This document shows, in pieces, positions 5,170 to 43,733 of a stretch of DNA of 48,265 bases; within the stretch, counting starts at the first letter, position 1, and each line of letters opens with the position of its first letter. Location of the stretch: positions 19,456-67,720 of the forward strand of contig JAHFEJ010000005.1 of NCBI GenBank assembly GCA_023248535.1. The letters run 5' to 3'. Source of the stretch: Nitrospinales bacterium (GTDB lineage: Bacteria; Nitrospinota_A; UBA7883; JACRGQ01). The translations under genes and the position numbers were made by a program. The notes beneath the pieces were generated by a model, which saw only the letters and a program-made list of their open reading frames with translations, was not told the origin of the DNA and searched no databases.

Positions 5170-6748
5170 ATCGATGAAATTTAGTCCTTACGGGCTGCGG
5201 TTTTACTTCGCCATCCGTTTGGCTCTCGTTTTCATGCTGGTGGCCACCATCATGATTTACACAGCCATGTCCTACATTTCTGCCACGATGATTGAGAATC
5301 ATTTCGAACTGGCGCAGGTATTGGCCGAAGAAATCGCCGCGAACAGCGAATACGGCTTCCTTACGGGTGACAAAGTAATTCTGGGAAAAATGCTTGAGGG
5401 GGTGAAGCGCCAAAAAGACGTTGTATATGCCGCTATCCTCGAAAAGGAAGGCGCCGATGGGATACTGTTCGAATTTTCGCGCAGTGGATATAGTCCGCGG
5501 CCCGTTGCGCCGTTGCCCGCCAGTGTTCAAAAGGAAAAATTCACTCTTGGAAAACACCACATGGTGGTCGGCGTCACATGCCCGGTATACACCACATCGG
5601 CCCCAAATGAAGCCGAGTCATTGCTGTTTGAGGGCGCGGAGGGATTGCCGGCGACGAAGAAAAAAACGTTGCATGGGGCGGTTCGGGTTTTCATTTCGCT
5701 TGACCATGAGTTGGTGGAAATCGGGCGGTTGGGCGTGCTGATAGCCAGCGGCGTCGTAGCCGGTCTTTTATTGCTGGTTTTCGTGCTTTACGCCATGTTG
5801 TCACGGCAGGTTGTTTGGCCTCTGGGCGAGTTTATCCGCGGCGTTCGCGAGATCGAAAAGGGAAACCTGGATTATCGTATCCCGCTGCTGTCCAAAAGTG
5901 AAATAAAGGAGCTGGTCGAGGCGTTCAATGATTCGGTGGAAAAACGGCAACATGTTTCAAAGGAACTGGCCCTGCATCAGGAACATCTCGAGGACTTGGT
6001 CAGAGAGAGGACGAAGGAGTTGCTGGCCGCGCGAAATCAGGCGGAGGATGCAACGCGGCTAAAAGACAAATTTGTCGCCGCCGCTTCCCACGATTTGCGC
6101 TCCCCCGTCGGCTCCTTGCAGGTGCTAATCCGGTTTATTCAAGGACGGCCCGAAATCCAGGTAAATCCGGAAACCAGCAGGTTGTTTGCAGCCGCCTATA
6201 AAAACACCCAGGGCATTTTAAAATTGATAGACAATTTGCTGGATTTAAATCGCATTCAAATGGGCAAACTCACCTATCATTATAAAAATTGCGATGTCTC
6301 CGCCATCGTCGCGGCCGCCATAGAACCGCTTCGGGCCCTCGCCGAAGCTAAAAATATCGCCATCCACGTTTCATTATCGCCGGGGACGGTCATAAAGGTG
6401 GACGAGAGCCTTATTATTCAGGCGATCCAGAACCTTATTTCCAACGCGATAAAATATTGCGGAAGCGGTGGTGAAATATCGCTAACGGAGGAAACGGCCC
6501 CTCAGGGATTTGTGTTAAAGGTTAAGGATACCGGCACCGGAATTTCGCCTGAAGTGCTGAACCGGCTCTTTACCGACAATATCCTTCAAAGCATACCGGG
6601 AACTGCGGGAGAACAGGGGAGCGGCCTGGGGCTTCAACTCTGTTATGATATCATCAAGGCGCATGGCGGAACAATAACCGCCGAAAGCATTGTGGGTGAG
6701 GGAACCACGTTCACCGTTTGTCTTCCTAATCTCGGATTCCGAAGGTAG
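5162..6748 (+). CDS. Membrane sensor histidine kinase (CHASE8-like periplasmic domain, HAMP)
   Basis: A 528-residue kinase. ATG 5162 overlaps the end of the binding-protein gene by 8 bases. Order: TM1 (about residues 14-38), a periplasmic domain of roughly 150 residues resembling CHASE8-type sensors (EEIAANSEYGFLTGDK, VYAAILEKEG), TM2 (about 191-213), HAMP, a short coiled coil, HisKA with H-box SHDLRSP (His310), then HATPase with N-box NLISNAIKY, G1 DTGTGIS and G2 GSGLGL. There is no receiver domain and no response-regulator gene nearby, so the output partner is encoded elsewhere. Its ATP lid carries a GTAGEQGSG segment that recurs in two other kinases of this window. Inference: it reports ligand bound by the upstream periplasmic protein. 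Confidence 0.92.
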   Translation: MSKSMKFSPYGLRFYFAIRLALVFMLVATIMIYTAMSYISATMIENHFELAQVLAEEIAANSEYGFLTGDKVILGKMLEGVKRQKDVVYAAILEKEGADGILFEFSRSGYSPRPVAPLPASVQKEKFTLGKHHMVVGVTCPVYTTSAPNEAESLLFEGAEGLPATKKKTLHGAVRVFISLDHELVEIGRLGVLIASGVVAGLLLLVFVLYAMLSRQVVWPLGEFIRGVREIEKGNLDYRIPLLSKSEIKELVEAFNDSVEKRQHVSKELALHQEHLEDLVRERTKELLAARNQAEDATRLKDKFVAAASHDLRSPVGSLQVLIRFIQGRPEIQVNPETSRLFAAAYKNTQGILKLIDNLLDLNRIQMGKLTYHYKNCDVSAIVAAAIEPLRALAEAKNIAIHVSLSPGTVIKVDESLIIQAIQNLISNAIKYCGSGGEISLTEETAPQGFVLKVKDTGTGISPEVLNRLFTDNILQSIPGTAGEQGSGLGLQLCYDIIKAHGGTITAESIVGEGTTFTVCLPNLGFRR

Positions 6749-6870
6749 GTGAACAGGCCGTACCGGATTAAATTTCGGGCGGCGGCGGGGAAAAACGTTA
6801 CTCTTTCCAAGCCGTCACCACCCGTTGCCAGCGGAACCGGTAGGCGTAGGCCAATTCCGGTAAAAGCCGC

Positions 6871-7182
6871 TTATACCTGCATCCTCATTACTTCCTGATA
6901 TGCGTCGAGAACTTTGTTCCGCACCTGCACCGTCATGCGGAAAGCCAGATCGGCTTTCGACAGGGCGATCATCGTTCCGTGAATGTCCTTGTTCTCCCCG
7001 CTGACCAGCGCTTCGATGGATTTGTCGGCGTCCAGCTGGAGATTGTTCACTTCGTTCATGGATTCTTTCAACGCGTCGCCAAAACTTTTTCCGGCGGAGG
7101 TCCCCGCGGCATTCGCCGTCTTGATACCGAGGTCGGCCCCCAGCGGCTTAAAATTGGTGTTCAGCGCGGATATTTTCATCAT
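6871..7182 (-). CDS. fliE: Flagellar hook-basal body protein FliE
   Basis: A 103-residue FliE, which joins the MS ring to the rod. Family features seen are SFGDALKESMNEVNNLQLDADKS in the middle and the conserved C-terminus (TMIALSKADLAFRMTVQVRNKVLDAYQEVMRMQV). Two ATGs (7182 and 7179) follow AAGGAA; either can be the start. It lies 7 bases after flgB on the same strand. The usual flgC between flgB and fliE is missing, and no fliF follows: the next gene on this side is the convergent kinase. The roughly 120 bases after the stop show no clear terminator. Confidence 0.95.
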   Translation of the reverse strand: MMKISALNTNFKPLGADLGIKTANAAGTSAGKSFGDALKESMNEVNNLQLDADKSIEALVSGENKDIHGTMIALSKADLAFRMTVQVRNKVLDAYQEVMRMQV

Positions 7183-7189
7183 CTATTCC

Positions 7190-7609
7190 TTATTTCACGT
7201 CGGTGATGGCCGACCGGAGGATGCCGGTCCGCTTGTTCATCGCAGTGATCGCCGCATCGTATGACATCTGCGTTTCGGAAAACGCCGTAACCTCTTTTTC
7301 CATGTCAACGTTGTTGCCGTCGATACGCCCTTGGGTCAAGTCGACATCGGTTACTCCCTGGATACCCTGGATATCCTGTACCGGAGAGCCGAAGTGGCCG
7401 GCGTGGGTCGCTTTTAGCGGCATGGCAGATCCATCCAATGCCCCGCGCAATATCCCTTCGAATTCAAATCGCGAAGCCTTGAATCCCGGGGTTTCGGCGT
7501 TGGCGATATTGGCGGCATGAACCGATGCTTTTTGGGCGTTGAGATCCAGCGACCTCTTCAACAGCGCCGGCGTGCGGTCGCTAAACAGTAACGAGTTAAT
7601 AAGTCCCAT
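7190..7609 (-). CDS. flgB: Flagellar basal-body rod protein FlgB
   Basis: A 139-residue proximal rod protein. ATG 7609 has AGAGG about 8 bases upstream; an in-frame start at 7633 would lie almost on the promoter. It contains the rod motif ANIANAETPGFKA near residues 30-42 and the FlgB-type C-terminus DGNNVDMEKEVTAFSETQMSYDAAITAMNKR, which separates it from FlgC. It is the first gene of a two-gene flgB-fliE unit behind a sigma-54 promoter whose predicted start leaves a leader of about 17 bases. Assembly would also require FlgC, which must be encoded elsewhere. Confidence 0.95.
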   Translation of the reverse strand: MGLINSLLFSDRTPALLKRSLDLNAQKASVHAANIANAETPGFKASRFEFEGILRGALDGSAMPLKATHAGHFGSPVQDIQGIQGVTDVDLTQGRIDGNNVDMEKEVTAFSETQMSYDAAITAMNKRTGILRSAITDVK

Positions 7610-39362: not shown

Positions 39363-40706
39363 TTAATGGGACGGGGGAGGGGGCACAAAACCGCGCCGAA
39401 GGGTTGATTCTTCCTGTTTAAATGCCTCCCCGGCCTGAATCAAGGCCCTCTTGAAGACAATTGGGCCGATGATTTCGCAGATGGTTATCTCGGCAATGAT
39501 GAGGGTGGCCAGCGTTTCACCCCACCCGGGAATCCGATCACGGACAATGAGTGCAAGCCCCAGCGAGACCCCCGCCTGGGAAACAAAACCCCTCCAAAGC
39601 AGCCGCCGCAGAAGGGGGGAAGCGTCCAACAGCCGCGTGGCGAAAGCGGTCGCCGCGTACATCAGCATTACCCGCACCACGAAATAGATCAGCGCCACCG
39701 CCCACATTTGCCGCAGGGCCTCGGTATTGAGGGATGCACCCGTGAGGGAAAAGAAAACGATGAAGATCGGCAATGCCCCCTTTTCCACGGCGCGGACGAA
39801 TTTGTGCCCCTCGGCGCTGAAGTTGCGCACCACAAATCCGGTGGTGACGCACAGCAACAGCACGTTGAGGTGCATCAGCGTGCTGAGCGCGCCGGAGATG
39901 ACCGCCACGCCGAAGCTGAAAAGGAGCATCAGGTTGCCCATCGTCTTGAGATAGAACGCCACGAACGCCCCCAGCAACGCTCCGGCAAGCAGTGAAAAGC
40001 CCGTTTCCGCAATGATGGCATGGAGCACTTCATCGACCGGAAGCGGCTCGCCTTGGCCGCCGCCGCGGATCCAGGCCAGGATCATCGTGAACAGGGCAAT
40101 CACGAGAATATCCTTGATGACGACGATGCCGAGCGTATTTTCGGTCAGCTCTCCCCTTGCGCGTGTTTCGTTCACGATGGCTCCCGTGGCGGCGGGAGAG
40201 GAGGTGGCCCCGATCGCCGCCATGATAAGCGCGGCCCCCACGGCCGCACCCAACGGCACAGACGAAAATCCGGGGAAGCCGAAATGAATAAGCGGGTAGA
40301 ACACCATCAGGATGCCGGTGAAAACGATAAAAACGTTGACCATGCCGATGCCCAGCATTTTCTTTCCCTGCCGCTTGAGGAAATCCCATTCGATCTCGGC
40401 CCCGACCGAAAGGGCGATGTAGGCGAAGGCAAGCGTGTTGATGAGGGAAAATTCGGCGATGCGGGGCCGCTCGATGATGTTAAGCGCGGCGGGCCCCGCC
40501 AGCACGCCGAATAAAAGGTAGCCCGTGAGCAGGGGCAGCGCCATCCGTTCCGCAAGTTTGGAGACGAAAAAACCCCCCAGCAAGATGAAGCCGAGCGTGA
40601 TGGTGACCGCGGAAGCGCCGGTGAAGCTTTTTCCCCCGAGGAAGAAGGAGAGGTTCCCCATGATGACAAAGATGATCGTCAGCGCCAGTACCTGCCGTTT
40701 GATCAT
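39363..40706 (-). CDS. CPA-type Na+/H+ or K+/H+ antiporter (second of pair)
   Basis: A 447-residue polytopic membrane protein with about 12 TM helices, of the cation:proton antiporter (Na_H_Exchanger) fold. Visible motifs: LAERMALPLLTGYLLFGVLAGP near the N-terminus, LSVGAEIEWDFLKRQGKK, the core helix GATSSPAATGAIVNETRARGELTENTLGIVVIKDILVI with SSP in place of the ND/DD ion site, and a C-terminal RGFVSQAGVSLGLALIVRD. No TrkA-N domain is attached. The start overlaps the stop of the first antiporter by 4 bases (ATGA), so the two are coexpressed and may form a heteromer. Confidence 0.88.
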   Translation of the reverse strand: MIKRQVLALTIIFVIMGNLSFFLGGKSFTGASAVTITLGFILLGGFFVSKLAERMALPLLTGYLLFGVLAGPAALNIIERPRIAEFSLINTLAFAYIALSVGAEIEWDFLKRQGKKMLGIGMVNVFIVFTGILMVFYPLIHFGFPGFSSVPLGAAVGAALIMAAIGATSSPAATGAIVNETRARGELTENTLGIVVIKDILVIALFTMILAWIRGGGQGEPLPVDEVLHAIIAETGFSLLAGALLGAFVAFYLKTMGNLMLLFSFGVAVISGALSTLMHLNVLLLCVTTGFVVRNFSAEGHKFVRAVEKGALPIFIVFFSLTGASLNTEALRQMWAVALIYFVVRVMLMYAATAFATRLLDASPLLRRLLWRGFVSQAGVSLGLALIVRDRIPGWGETLATLIIAEITICEIIGPIVFKRALIQAGEAFKQEESTLRRGFVPPPPSH

Positions 40707-41884
40707 TGCTTCGCCGCCAGAACACGGCCAATGAGAAATGGCGCGGCAATTTCATTAAATATGACGCAAAGGGCGATGATGGAAAAAACGCCCCGGCCCA
40801 TGCCGCCGTTTTCGACCGAGAGATAGGCGAACCCGATGACCAGCGCCATCGCCCCCTGCGATGCCAGCGCCAGCCCCCCGTTTTTGGGGAAAGGGGAGGG
40901 CGCGGCGCCGCGGCCCATCAGCCAGTTAAGCGAATACTGTTTTCCCAAAAGCCGCACCGGCGCCACCACGAAGGCAATGGCAAAGGTTATGGGCGAGGGG
41001 ACGAACATGAGTCCGGCCAGCAGGAGCATGATGATGTAAAAAGGGCGCTCCGTATTGGAAGCCGCGCGGTAAAGCGGGTCGTCCGGACGCAGCGTATTGG
41101 CCAGAAACACCCCGGCGATAAAGCTGATGACCAGCGGCGACACCGACAGCACCCCCCCGACCCCCGCGGTGAAAAAAACAAAGCCGATCATCAGCACCAG
41201 TTGTTCTTTGTCTTTCAGTTTTTCGCGCGGCAGGTGGCGGAAGAAAAAGCCCAGCAGCAGGCCGGTGCCGGCGGCTTGCGCCAGATACTTAAGGCCGAGC
41301 GTGAAGGAAACCAGGCCGTGACGGAGCAGGGTCAGGGAAAGCGCCATCAGCACAACCGCCACCATCGCATCAAGGCCGGAGATGACATTGAGAAGCTGGC
41401 GGACCGATGCTTCAAAGCGCCGCTCTTTTCCCAGCAGCGCCAGGACGGTGGGGGACGAAACCGCCGCCGCGGCGGCCAGCACCGCCGCGGCCACCACGGC
41501 TTCCCCGGCGCCCCATCGGTAGAGATAATGAAGCGGCAGATAGGCCGCCAGCATCACCAAAAGACCGCAAAAGAGGGCCTGATAGAGGGTGACCCGCAAT
41601 TGCCAGCGTTCCACGCGGGCCAAGTCGGTCAGCCGCATTTGGGCGCCGACCAGCAACCCCACCCAGCCAAGCCCCAGGTGAATGACCGGCTCAAGTTCGC
41701 GCAAAAGAAATTCAGGAAAAAAATCGAGCACGGAGGGGCCGATGATAATGCCGATAAGCATGAATTCCCAGCCGGTATAAAATAGGTACCGGATGAGGGG
41801 GGGGAGCTTTTCCTTGGAAAAGATATGAAGGGAGCCGGCATAGGCTACCGCCGAAAGCAGGATCAGGCCGAGGATGGCGCTCAT
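40703..41884 (-). CDS. CPA-type antiporter-like membrane protein (first of pair)
   Basis: A 393-residue polytopic protein with about 11-12 TM helices and the same fold as its downstream partner but low similarity. Features are YLFYTGWEFMLIGIIIGP, HLGLGWVGLLVGAQMRLTDLARV, AAAAAVSSPTVLALLGKERRFEASVRQLLNVISGLDAMVAVVLMAL, and a terminal GGLALASQGAMALVIGFAYLS. The SSP core motif is again present. It lies 21 bases after the PII-like gene. The transported ion is unknown. Confidence 0.86.
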   Translation of the reverse strand: MSAILGLILLSAVAYAGSLHIFSKEKLPPLIRYLFYTGWEFMLIGIIIGPSVLDFFPEFLLRELEPVIHLGLGWVGLLVGAQMRLTDLARVERWQLRVTLYQALFCGLLVMLAAYLPLHYLYRWGAGEAVVAAAVLAAAAAVSSPTVLALLGKERRFEASVRQLLNVISGLDAMVAVVLMALSLTLLRHGLVSFTLGLKYLAQAAGTGLLLGFFFRHLPREKLKDKEQLVLMIGFVFFTAGVGGVLSVSPLVISFIAGVFLANTLRPDDPLYRAASNTERPFYIIMLLLAGLMFVPSPITFAIAFVVAPVRLLGKQYSLNWLMGRGAAPSPFPKNGGLALASQGAMALVIGFAYLSVENGGMGRGVFSIIALCVIFNEIAAPFLIGRVLAAKQ

Positions 41885-41905
41885 GCCGCCCCCCGCGCCG
41901 CCCCG

Positions 41906-42241
41906 CTATTGCGGCTTGGGGTCGTAATAATGGGTGACGGGGAGGGTGAAAAAAATGCCGGCGTCGTGTTCTTCCATGCCGGAAAAAATTTCTTTGACGA
42001 TCTTAATGGCATCTTCAAGCGTTTTTGTATCCTGTATTACCGAAAAAACCGTGTAGTTCGATTCGCGCACGCCGTTGAAAAGATTTTTAAAACCGGAAAA
42101 AATCGGAACCTCGTTGGCGATAATGGTTCCCATTCCCTTGCTGTCGATAACGGTGCAGCCGCTAACGCCAACCTCGATAAAACCCGCGAGAACATCTTCA
42201 AGGAGTTTCGGCTTGTTAATGACACAAACCAGAAGTTCCAC
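41906..42241 (-). CDS. PII-like signalling protein
   Basis: A 111-residue small protein with the ferredoxin-like PII/CutA fold pattern: MELLVCVINKPKLLEDVLAGFIEVGVSGCTVIDSKGMG at the N-terminus, strongly like PII proteins, and a second beta-alpha-beta half around NYTVFSVIQDTKTLEDAIKIVKEIF. The T-loop Tyr51 region of GlnB/GlnK is absent, so it is a PII-like rather than a classic nitrogen PII protein. GTG 42241 directly follows the EIIA stop (TGA-GTG). In this context it is a candidate nucleotide sensor for the two antiporters. Confidence 0.78.
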   Translation of the reverse strand: MELLVCVINKPKLLEDVLAGFIEVGVSGCTVIDSKGMGTIIANEVPIFSGFKNLFNGVRESNYTVFSVIQDTKTLEDAIKIVKEIFSGMEEHDAGIFFTLPVTHYYDPKPQ

Positions 42242-42703
42242 TCAGTTATCCACCTGACGGATGGCCTCCAACGCTTCCAGGGGAGTGGATGCCATCTGCA
42301 CTTTCTTGATCAGCTCCTTGTTGCGGCAGAGGCGGACGATCCGGGCGAGGATCTGGATATGAAGGCGCGGCACCGCCTGGGATCCGATGATCATGAATAC
42401 CACCTTGACCGGCTGGCCGTCCACCGACGAGAAATCGACCCCCTCCGGGAGCACGCCGATGAGTATGACCGTTTCGCTGAACCCTTCAAGGGATGCGTGT
42501 GGAATGGCGATTGATTCGCCCACGCCGGTGGTGCTCAGTTTTTCGCGTTCCTCCAGCTTGCGGATGAGCACTTCGGCGTTCGCCTTGTCGAGCAGGCCGG
42601 TGGATTCCAGGCAACCGGTAAGCTCCGCGAATACGTCGTGCCGGGTCTGCGCCTTCATATTGAGCGCCACATATTCAGGCTTTATATAGTCACCGATGCT
42701 CAT
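42242..42703 (-). CDS. PTS EIIA-type protein (fructose/nitrogen family)
   Basis: A 153-residue EIIA-Ntr/EIIA-Fru domain. The phosphorylatable His is His69 in GESIAIPHAS; preceding REKLSTTGVG and later VFMIIG and HIQILARIVRLC are family features. There are no EIIB/EIIC genes nearby and no rpoN/hpf context, so this is a regulatory rather than a transport EIIA. By analogy with EIIA-Ntr control of K+ transport in E. coli, it may regulate the adjacent antiporters. ATG 42703 lies inside the end of the upstream small gene. Confidence 0.9.
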   Translation of the reverse strand: MSIGDYIKPEYVALNMKAQTRHDVFAELTGCLESTGLLDKANAEVLIRKLEEREKLSTTGVGESIAIPHASLEGFSETVILIGVLPEGVDFSSVDGQPVKVVFMIIGSQAVPRLHIQILARIVRLCRNKELIKKVQMASTPLEALEAIRQVDN

Positions 42704-42842
42704 CGTCTATTTCTCCCTTTTCCCCATGTTCCCTGTTTTCACCGGTGGAGCTTTTTTTCATTTGCATCATCAAGTGGAAACCGTGCCCCAGCAGCCAGAT
42801 AATAATTACGAAGATCAGTCCGGCTGCTACCCATCCAAACAT
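42690..42842 (-). CDS. Small single-TM membrane protein (50 aa)
   Basis: A short reading frame: MFGWVAAGLIFVIIIWLLGH is an N-terminal TM segment, then a charged cytoplasmic-type tail rich in Lys/Glu/His (KKSSTGENREHGEKGEIDDEHR). It starts 3 bases after the dapB stop, and its last 14 bases overlap the EIIA start, the tight packing expected of a translationally coupled operon member. No family is recognised and the ribosome site is weak. Possibly a small regulatory subunit of the antiporter module. Confidence 0.55.
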   Translation of the reverse strand: MFGWVAAGLIFVIIIWLLGHGFHLMMQMKKSSTGENREHGEKGEIDDEHR

Positions 42843-42845
42843 CGC

Positions 42846-43655
42846 CTATTTCAGGCCCAACACGTCCTGCATATCATACAGGCCGTTTTTTTGCCCCGCC
42901 AGCCACTCCGCGGCCCGTACCGCCCCGGCGGCGAAATTGCGGCGGCTGGTGGCCTTGTGGGTTAACTCCACCCGCTCCCCCTGCCCGGCGAAATATACCG
43001 TGTGTTCCCCGACAACATCCCCCATCCGCAACGCCATGACGGCGATCTCGTCTTTTGTCCGTTCGCCGGTGATGCCGTGGCGGCCGTAAACGCCAACCTT
43101 GCCGAGGTCGCGCCCCGTTTCGCGGGCGCATATCTCGGCCAGCCGCATCGCCGTGCCGGAAGGGGAGTCTTTTTTCAGGTTGTGGTGAATTTCCATGATC
43201 TCGATGTCATAACTCTTTCCCAGGATGCGGGCGGTGTCCGCCAGCACCTTGAACAGCACGTTCACGCCGATGCTCATGTTCGGCGCGCGCACGCAGCGGA
43301 TGGCGGCGCGGTGCGAATCCATCTCTTTCACCTGTCCGGCGGAAAAGCCGGTGGTGCCGATGACGATCCCTTTGCCCGCCGCGCGGCAGATGGCAAAGTG
43401 TTCCATGGTCGCTTCGGGGGTGGAGAAGTCGATGATCACATCGACATCGTTGATGATCTCTTTGAGGTGGGCGGCGATTTTTGGCCCGCCCGCGCCGCGG
43501 CCCAACGGCCCGAAGGCGTCAGCGCCGATCAGCGCATGGCCGGGGCGTTCCGTCCCTCCGCCCAGACGCAGACCGGGGTTCTCAAGAATACAATTGGCGA
43601 TCTCCCGCCCCATCCGGCCCGCTATGCCGGTAACGCCAACCCTGACAATGCCCAC
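42846..43655 (-). CDS. dapB: 4-Hydroxy-tetrahydrodipicolinate reductase
   Basis: The NAD(P)H-dependent second committed step of DAP/lysine synthesis. 269 residues from GTG 43655, preceded by GGAAGTGGGG; longer frames add non-conserved residues. Motifs: VGVTGIAGRMGREI (dinucleotide loop), DFSTPEAT, IGTTGFS, and the catalytic EIHHNLKKDSPSGTA. 269 residues is the normal length. It starts the dapB-microTM-EIIA-PII-antiporter string. Confidence 0.96.
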   Translation of the reverse strand: MGIVRVGVTGIAGRMGREIANCILENPGLRLGGGTERPGHALIGADAFGPLGRGAGGPKIAAHLKEIINDVDVIIDFSTPEATMEHFAICRAAGKGIVIGTTGFSAGQVKEMDSHRAAIRCVRAPNMSIGVNVLFKVLADTARILGKSYDIEIMEIHHNLKKDSPSGTAMRLAEICARETGRDLGKVGVYGRHGITGERTKDEIAVMALRMGDVVGEHTVYFAGQGERVELTHKATSRRNFAAGAVRAAEWLAGQKNGLYDMQDVLGLK

Positions 43656-43733
43656 TGTTACCCCACTTCCATTAAAACGAAGCCTTGATTGTACCCCCAA
43701 GCTACATTTCGTCAACAGCTAAAAAGGCCTGAT

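Follow-up and report, generated by a model that had tools for sequence, protein, structure and literature searches.

A conserved EIIA–PII-like–antiporter gene unit and a candidate heterodimeric cation/proton antiporter under proposed two-protein control

Why should an orphan EIIA and a PII-like protein be encoded in one tight run with two different antiporters? The run lies in a 48,265-nucleotide stretch of DNA (the window) from a Nitrospinales genome that is 98% complete with 0.2% contamination, and whose close relatives are mostly Nitrospinota MAGs. An ORF check of the window confirmed five tightly packed ORFs on the minus strand downstream of dapB, as the preliminary description had them. 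The first encodes microTM, a 50-aa single-TM protein (42690..42842) that lies 3 bp from dapB (42846..43655) and overlaps by 14 bp an orphan EIIA of 153 aa (42242..42703). A PII-like protein of 111 aa (41906..42241) abuts the EIIA and is followed after 21 bp by CPAa, a cation/proton antiporter-fold protein of 393 aa (40703..41884), which shares 4 bp (ATGA) with the 447-aa cation/proton antiporter CPAb (39363..40706). Both members of this overlapping pair match Pfam Na_H_Exchanger over the cut-off (1.9e-25 for CPAb and 2.6e-15 for CPAa) and were thus correctly named as CPA-type. We read the operon as a regulated monovalent-cation/proton antiporter, in which a CPAb/CPAa heterodimer would be controlled by the EIIA and the PII-like protein, and we give this reading, drawn from sequence comparison, a probability of roughly 0.55.

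The EIIA–PII-like–CPAa–CPAb core is a real, conserved unit. Each of the 12 further Nitrospinota genomes in which the PII-like gene occurs has EIIA, PII-like and CPAa as neighbours in this order, and CPAb comes next wherever the contig extends far enough; a myxococcal MAG has EIIA-PII-CPAa-CPAb in the identical order. The PII-like family was found in 70 of the 385 genomes searched. A second survey took in 65 PII-like genes, of which a few come from Nitrospinota: 44 have an EIIA within their gene run or fused to them, 38 have a CPA, 33 have both and 15 have neither. Since ORFs were called in a simple way and antiporters were recognised with models of the families found in the window, these counts miss some CPAs and may misassign some neighbours. 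Around the PII-like gene, EIIA genes account for 35/426 within four positions versus 1/345 farther away and CPA genes for 51/426 versus 1/345, although kin genomes were counted separately, so that Fisher p-values on these figures overstate independence. Gene orders vary (EIIA-PII-CPA-CPA, CPA-CPA-EIIA-PII, EIIA-CPA-PII, PII-EIIA-MrpE, and a CPA beside an EIIA–PII fusion), a variety that speaks for the association itself being under selection and against descent of a single block. In variant modules an Mrp subunit gene accompanies the EIIA and PII regulators; two related genomes have another gene downstream of the regulators, which is CLC-family in the one scanned. Many modules outside the window's group have a single DD-type antiporter; a heterodimer is therefore not essential to the theme. 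The PII-like gene was absent from G001, G005 and G010, which are of the same genus or family, in the 385-genome search, suggesting that the module is dispensable. At the sequence level, EIIA, PII-like and CPAa are under purifying selection, with dN/dS against a same-genus genome of ~0.1 for the EIIA and ~0.2 for the other two. The preliminary description had set its own test, that the neighbourhood should be conserved beyond this genome, and its proposal of a cation/proton exchange module linked to EIIA and PII-like proteins came through it with strong support from the conservation, the rearranged orders and the EIIA-PII fusions far outside the genome; two parts of that interpretation, the "five families" and the reading of "nucleotide state", are not supported as stated, and the "one complex" stays a prediction.

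The EIIA is a clear member of its family (PTS_EIIA_2, 8.8e-31), and the phosphoacceptor His69 previously assigned to it is present in the motif AIPH (codon 42497-42499). The histidine is kept in 56/57 scorable module EIIAs. The sole exception, L115, comes from G241, an 86% complete genome, and has Asn in its place. A family search found neither HPr nor EI in G241; the joint loss of the histidine and of HPr/EI is a single event. The same search detected HPr in 36/39 genomes, a few of the matches being weak, and EI in 35/39, in a set consisting mostly of genomes with the module, to which four Nitrospinota lacking the PII-like gene were added. It gave no convincing HPr or EI in G004, whose EIIA (L031) nonetheless keeps its His, and the correlation between histidine and phosphorelay is thus imperfect. 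The window EIIA is not the PtsN of its genome: it scores 61.9 bits against a cut-off of 138.7 for the PtsN equivalog (NCBIfam TIGR01419), and contig C128 carries another EIIA gene, the one linked to rpoN. There, RpoN, HPF, PtsN, an EIIA-Man-like protein, HPr and EI are encoded together, with PtsN, HPr and EI placed by family search and the remaining genes by reading translations. The window EIIA is therefore a second, dedicated EIIA in a phosphorelay-bearing genome.

The PII-like protein has the PII fold and little of the canonical PII chemistry. Its Pfam P-II match is marginal (26.3 bits against a curated cut-off of 25; 9.9e-06) and by far the weakest of the five in the genome. Its AF2 model (pLDDT 81) matches a solved PII with a Z of 12.8 and an rmsd of 1.8 over 84 residues, which together with the Pfam match places it in the P-II family. 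The protein had been described as lacking the classic T-loop; the canonical T-loop sequence is indeed gone, but the segment itself is present at about the same length, replaced by the strongly conserved, unrelated GMGKxxxQxxPIFxGFxxLFxGARESN, a region in which the model has low confidence. The replaced segment contains no conserved Tyr equivalent to the uridylylated Tyr51. The ATP-contact Lys of the B-loop TGxxGDGKIF is also absent (GxxF without Lys), and the C-terminus differs, without the canonical RxR. Two classical PII proteins of the same genome (L001 and L004), translated as comparators, keep both the GDGK Lys and RxR. On these loop residues we rejected a classical GlnK identity. Since the ATP-binding and uridylylation residues of GlnK are lost, the ligand of the PII-like protein is not predictable from canonical PII, and the earlier claim that the complex reads nucleotide state is, with the lysine, the tyrosine and the RxR absent, not supported as stated. 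A further lead, a Borrelia PII-like protein, was set aside as a different family, since the report concerns a DUF2179 membrane protein (PMC6516651).

The two antiporters differ from each other at the transport site. In a maximum-likelihood tree CPAa and CPAb form separate clades, each with 100/100 support and with similar branching, and distances in the one correlate with those in the other (r 0.77, n=18), a result that is supportive only, as such a correlation is expected for any co-inherited genes. In NapA, D157 is essential and D156 forms a salt bridge with K305. A profile alignment places D172 (41369-41371), Ala173 (41366-41368) and K315 (40940-40942) of CPAa on D156, D157 and K305 of NapA; CPAa thus keeps the first aspartate and the lysine, with the second TM5 Asp replaced by alanine. 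Across the clade the first TM5 Asp and the TM10 Lys are each kept in 16/18 CPAa proteins and the second Asp is lost in 16/18, and this loss is mostly repeated in further CPAa proteins elsewhere in PII-like-carrying genomes. CPAb shows the complementary pattern: its K198 (40113-40115) and D199 (40110-40112) align to the N/D of NHE6, the second Asp (D199) is invariant (20/20), a Lys mostly precedes it, and the TM10 Lys is lost. Neither protein therefore has the TM5 Asp-Asp and TM10 Lys of the CPA2 DD type, CPAa being D-A with Lys and CPAb K-D without Lys. Single antiporters of related modules have D-D in TM5 and the TM10 Lys, although the 29 proteins of that group were collected by this very motif, so that the D-D column itself is no test; membership of the CPAa and CPAb sets was taken from the tree. 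Both proteins belong to the CPA superfamily (PF00999), and the AF2 model of CPAa (pLDDT 83) has the whole antiporter fold, with a Z of 33 to MjNhaP1. In each, the membrane domain is the only Pfam match above cut-off and ends near the C-terminus, and the Pfam scan detected no RCK/CorC-type C-terminal cytosolic regulatory region. In two genomes (L134/L135) a 341-aa relative of CPAa occupies the CPAa position, and it has no TM5 site that can be aligned. A CPAa match above 180 bits occurs in 25 genomes, every one of which has the PII-like gene too, although 13 of them are Nitrospinota and hence not independent events. CPAa-CPAb pairs away from EIIA-PII exist as well, once (G058) in a genome where the search found no PII-like gene. 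Neither the usual loss of the CPAa TM5 aspartate nor the two mirrored clades figured in the preliminary description.

Each part belongs to a known family, and comparison with known systems suggests, provisionally, that what is new is how the parts are combined and how widely, together with the EIIA–PII fusions and the unequal pair of antiporters. NapA, NhaP and KefC, which to our knowledge act as homodimers, have in common with the window antiporters the fold and the TM5/TM10 site architecture, whereas here a paired gene set has unequal site residues. Among transporter-associated PII proteins, GlnK acts on AmtB by direct binding. SbtB, a PII-like regulator of the bicarbonate transporter SbtA, appears as a cited example in PMC10710835. 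The likeness to both is a PII-fold protein associated with a transporter, here through gene neighbourhood; the transporter family is a different one, and the PII-like protein lacks the T-loop Tyr and B-loop GDGK of GlnK and is coupled to an EIIA. Kef regulation involves glutathione and KefF/KefG (PMC11808508). The closest parallel is in E. coli, where YcgO, a K+/H+ antiporter (CPA1), is bound and inhibited by PtsN in its unphosphorylated form; the contact is the CorC domain of YcgO, in the C-terminal RCK/CorC region (PMC11808508). Here too an EIIA of the same Pfam family is joined to a cation/proton antiporter, with control by phosphorylation state established for PtsN-YcgO and proposed for the window module. 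In contrast to the single CPA1 protein with its C-terminal RCK/CorC region, the module has two antiporters without such a region and a PII-like gene, in a genome with a separate canonical PtsN beside RpoN. Because the CorC domain is absent, the contact between EIIA and antiporter must differ from that of PtsN-YcgO. In the open-licence PMC literature searched we found no description of the EIIA, PII-like and CPA combination; an earlier description elsewhere is possible.

The usual loss of the CPAa TM5 Asp, taken with the mirrored clades, suggests a heterodimer in which one protomer has degenerated. CPAb and CPAa would pair in the manner of the NapA/NhaP dimer, with CPAb as the transporting protomer that retains the essential TM5 aspartate. 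CPAa, having lost the ion/proton-binding aspartate but kept the fold and the D156-K305-type pair, would be the partner and probable docking subunit. Neither antiporter has a C-terminal cytosolic regulatory domain; control would be exerted in trans. His69 of the EIIA would be phosphorylated by the HPr/EI relay of the genome, and the EIIA would bind the antiporter according to its phosphorylation state, by analogy with PtsN and YcgO. The PII-like protein would be trimeric if it resembles other PII proteins, and it may bind through its replaced T-loop and supply a second input from a putative ligand. Gene content, conservation, the presence of phosphorelay genes, the residue pattern and the model folds of the PII-like protein and CPAa were observed directly; from these we infer complex formation, the heterodimer, the ion (K+ or Na+) and the sign of regulation. 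More tentatively, with the odds somewhat against it, the module may represent a two-input class, namely a heterodimeric CPA with a non-transporting regulatory protomer, whose gating would depend jointly on the phosphorylation of EIIA and on a PII-like sensor for a new ligand, and which would belong to a broad family of proton-coupled transporters under EIIA-PII control (CPA, Mrp and possibly CLC).

CPAa and CPAb could instead each form a homodimer and function independently, as antiporters that differ in ion specificity but are both under EIIA and PII-like regulation, with CPAa working through a single TM5 Asp. CPAa does retain the full antiporter fold, D172 and K315, and it exists without an adjacent CPAb (L150-L152). 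We nevertheless consider this unlikely, as most CPAa proteins lack the essential second Asp, those of L114 and L117 have lost both TM5 acids, and the mirrored trees with the conserved 4-bp overlap suggest obligate CPAa/CPAb pairing. Somewhat less likely again is that EIIA and PII-like have become constitutive structural subunits of the antiporter that no longer signal. Loss of the canonical nucleotide-loop residues, the one EIIA without its His and the retention of EIIA in G004 would fit such a role; the near-universal histidine, with HPr and EI in nearly all genomes tested, speaks against it.

The two regulators might also act on targets other than the antiporter, such as another enzyme or gene expression, and merely be co-expressed with it. 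EIIA-PII pairs without an adjoining CPA (L093, L099, L103, L120) are compatible with this, yet the partners recur across lineages as transporters of the proton-coupled or related kinds (CPA, Mrp, a CLC-family protein), and the near/far enrichment of EIIA and CPA around the PII-like gene makes such targets improbable. Chance or lineage-specific packing of functionally unlinked genes, to which the seemingly lineage-specific dapB and microTM in the same run might lend some colour, is very remote; it is already contradicted by an association kept across many families, in varied orders and as fusions.

The regulated CPAb/CPAa heterodimer, if correct, would generalise the PtsN–YcgO link, with PEP/PTS state and a PII-fold sensor setting cation/pH balance directly at the antiporter. 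It would also explain what orphan EIIA proteins do in HPr/EI-bearing genomes and define an antiporter-regulating branch of the PII superfamily. We know of no other natural CPA heterodimer with an inactive protomer; CPAa/CPAb would be the first, and a tool for asking whether CPA protomers act independently. Recurring in many unrelated bacterial lineages, the module looks like a widespread, apparently undescribed tie of ion/pH balance to metabolic state.

The remaining genes of the run, dapB (TIGR00036, 7.6e-86; true start probably near 43655) and microTM, are by sequence comparison lineage-specific neighbours, and the five co-occurring families originally envisaged do not include them. A promoter scan gave one good sigma-70-like site near the dapB start (43715-43688, 10/12) and a second, weaker minus-strand promoter-like site within the module; as both are consensus matches only, a single transcription unit stays a candidate reading. 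We rejected both genes as module parts, since dapB adjoins the module only within the window's own family and microTM occurs in part of that family. MicroTM has no Pfam match above cut-off, and no counterpart was found in two other genomes compared. It is 78% identical in two same-genus genomes and has short counterparts in two further same-family genomes, with a dN/dS of 0.3 in one comparison and ~1.1 in another.

At several loci in other genomes (L043, L126, L136–L138, L140, L141 and L144), EIIA and the PII-like protein are fused into a single protein of ~275 aa, and a CPA antiporter adjoins the fusion. Some runs of the order CPA–CPA–EIIA–PII carry additional domains or genes, with CBS domains fused to EIIA within the run in L111 (8314–9288) and a PAS histidine kinase with a receiver domain following it in L121 (8041–11634; domain scan of L121 only), a position held by genes of similar size in L042 and L122. 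Downstream of EIIA–PII-like in L096, a CLC-family chloride transporter (5416–7224) replaces the CPA antiporter, and a domain scan of L096 only identified Voltage_CLC and CBS domains in this gene; the gene downstream of EIIA–PII-like in L098 is similar in size. In L039, L091 and L092 an Mrp antiporter subunit E gene directly follows either PII-like alone or PII-like together with EIIA. Gemmatimonadota loci L055, L056 and L057 encode a PII-like relative with similar-looking gene neighbours at all three, and neither EIIA nor an antiporter was detected in the stretch around it.

In the window, the dapB ORF upstream of the module is listed as beginning with TTG at 43715, by which lies a promoter-like site (43715–43688). 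This listed start is too early; a same-genus relative suggests ~43655 instead.
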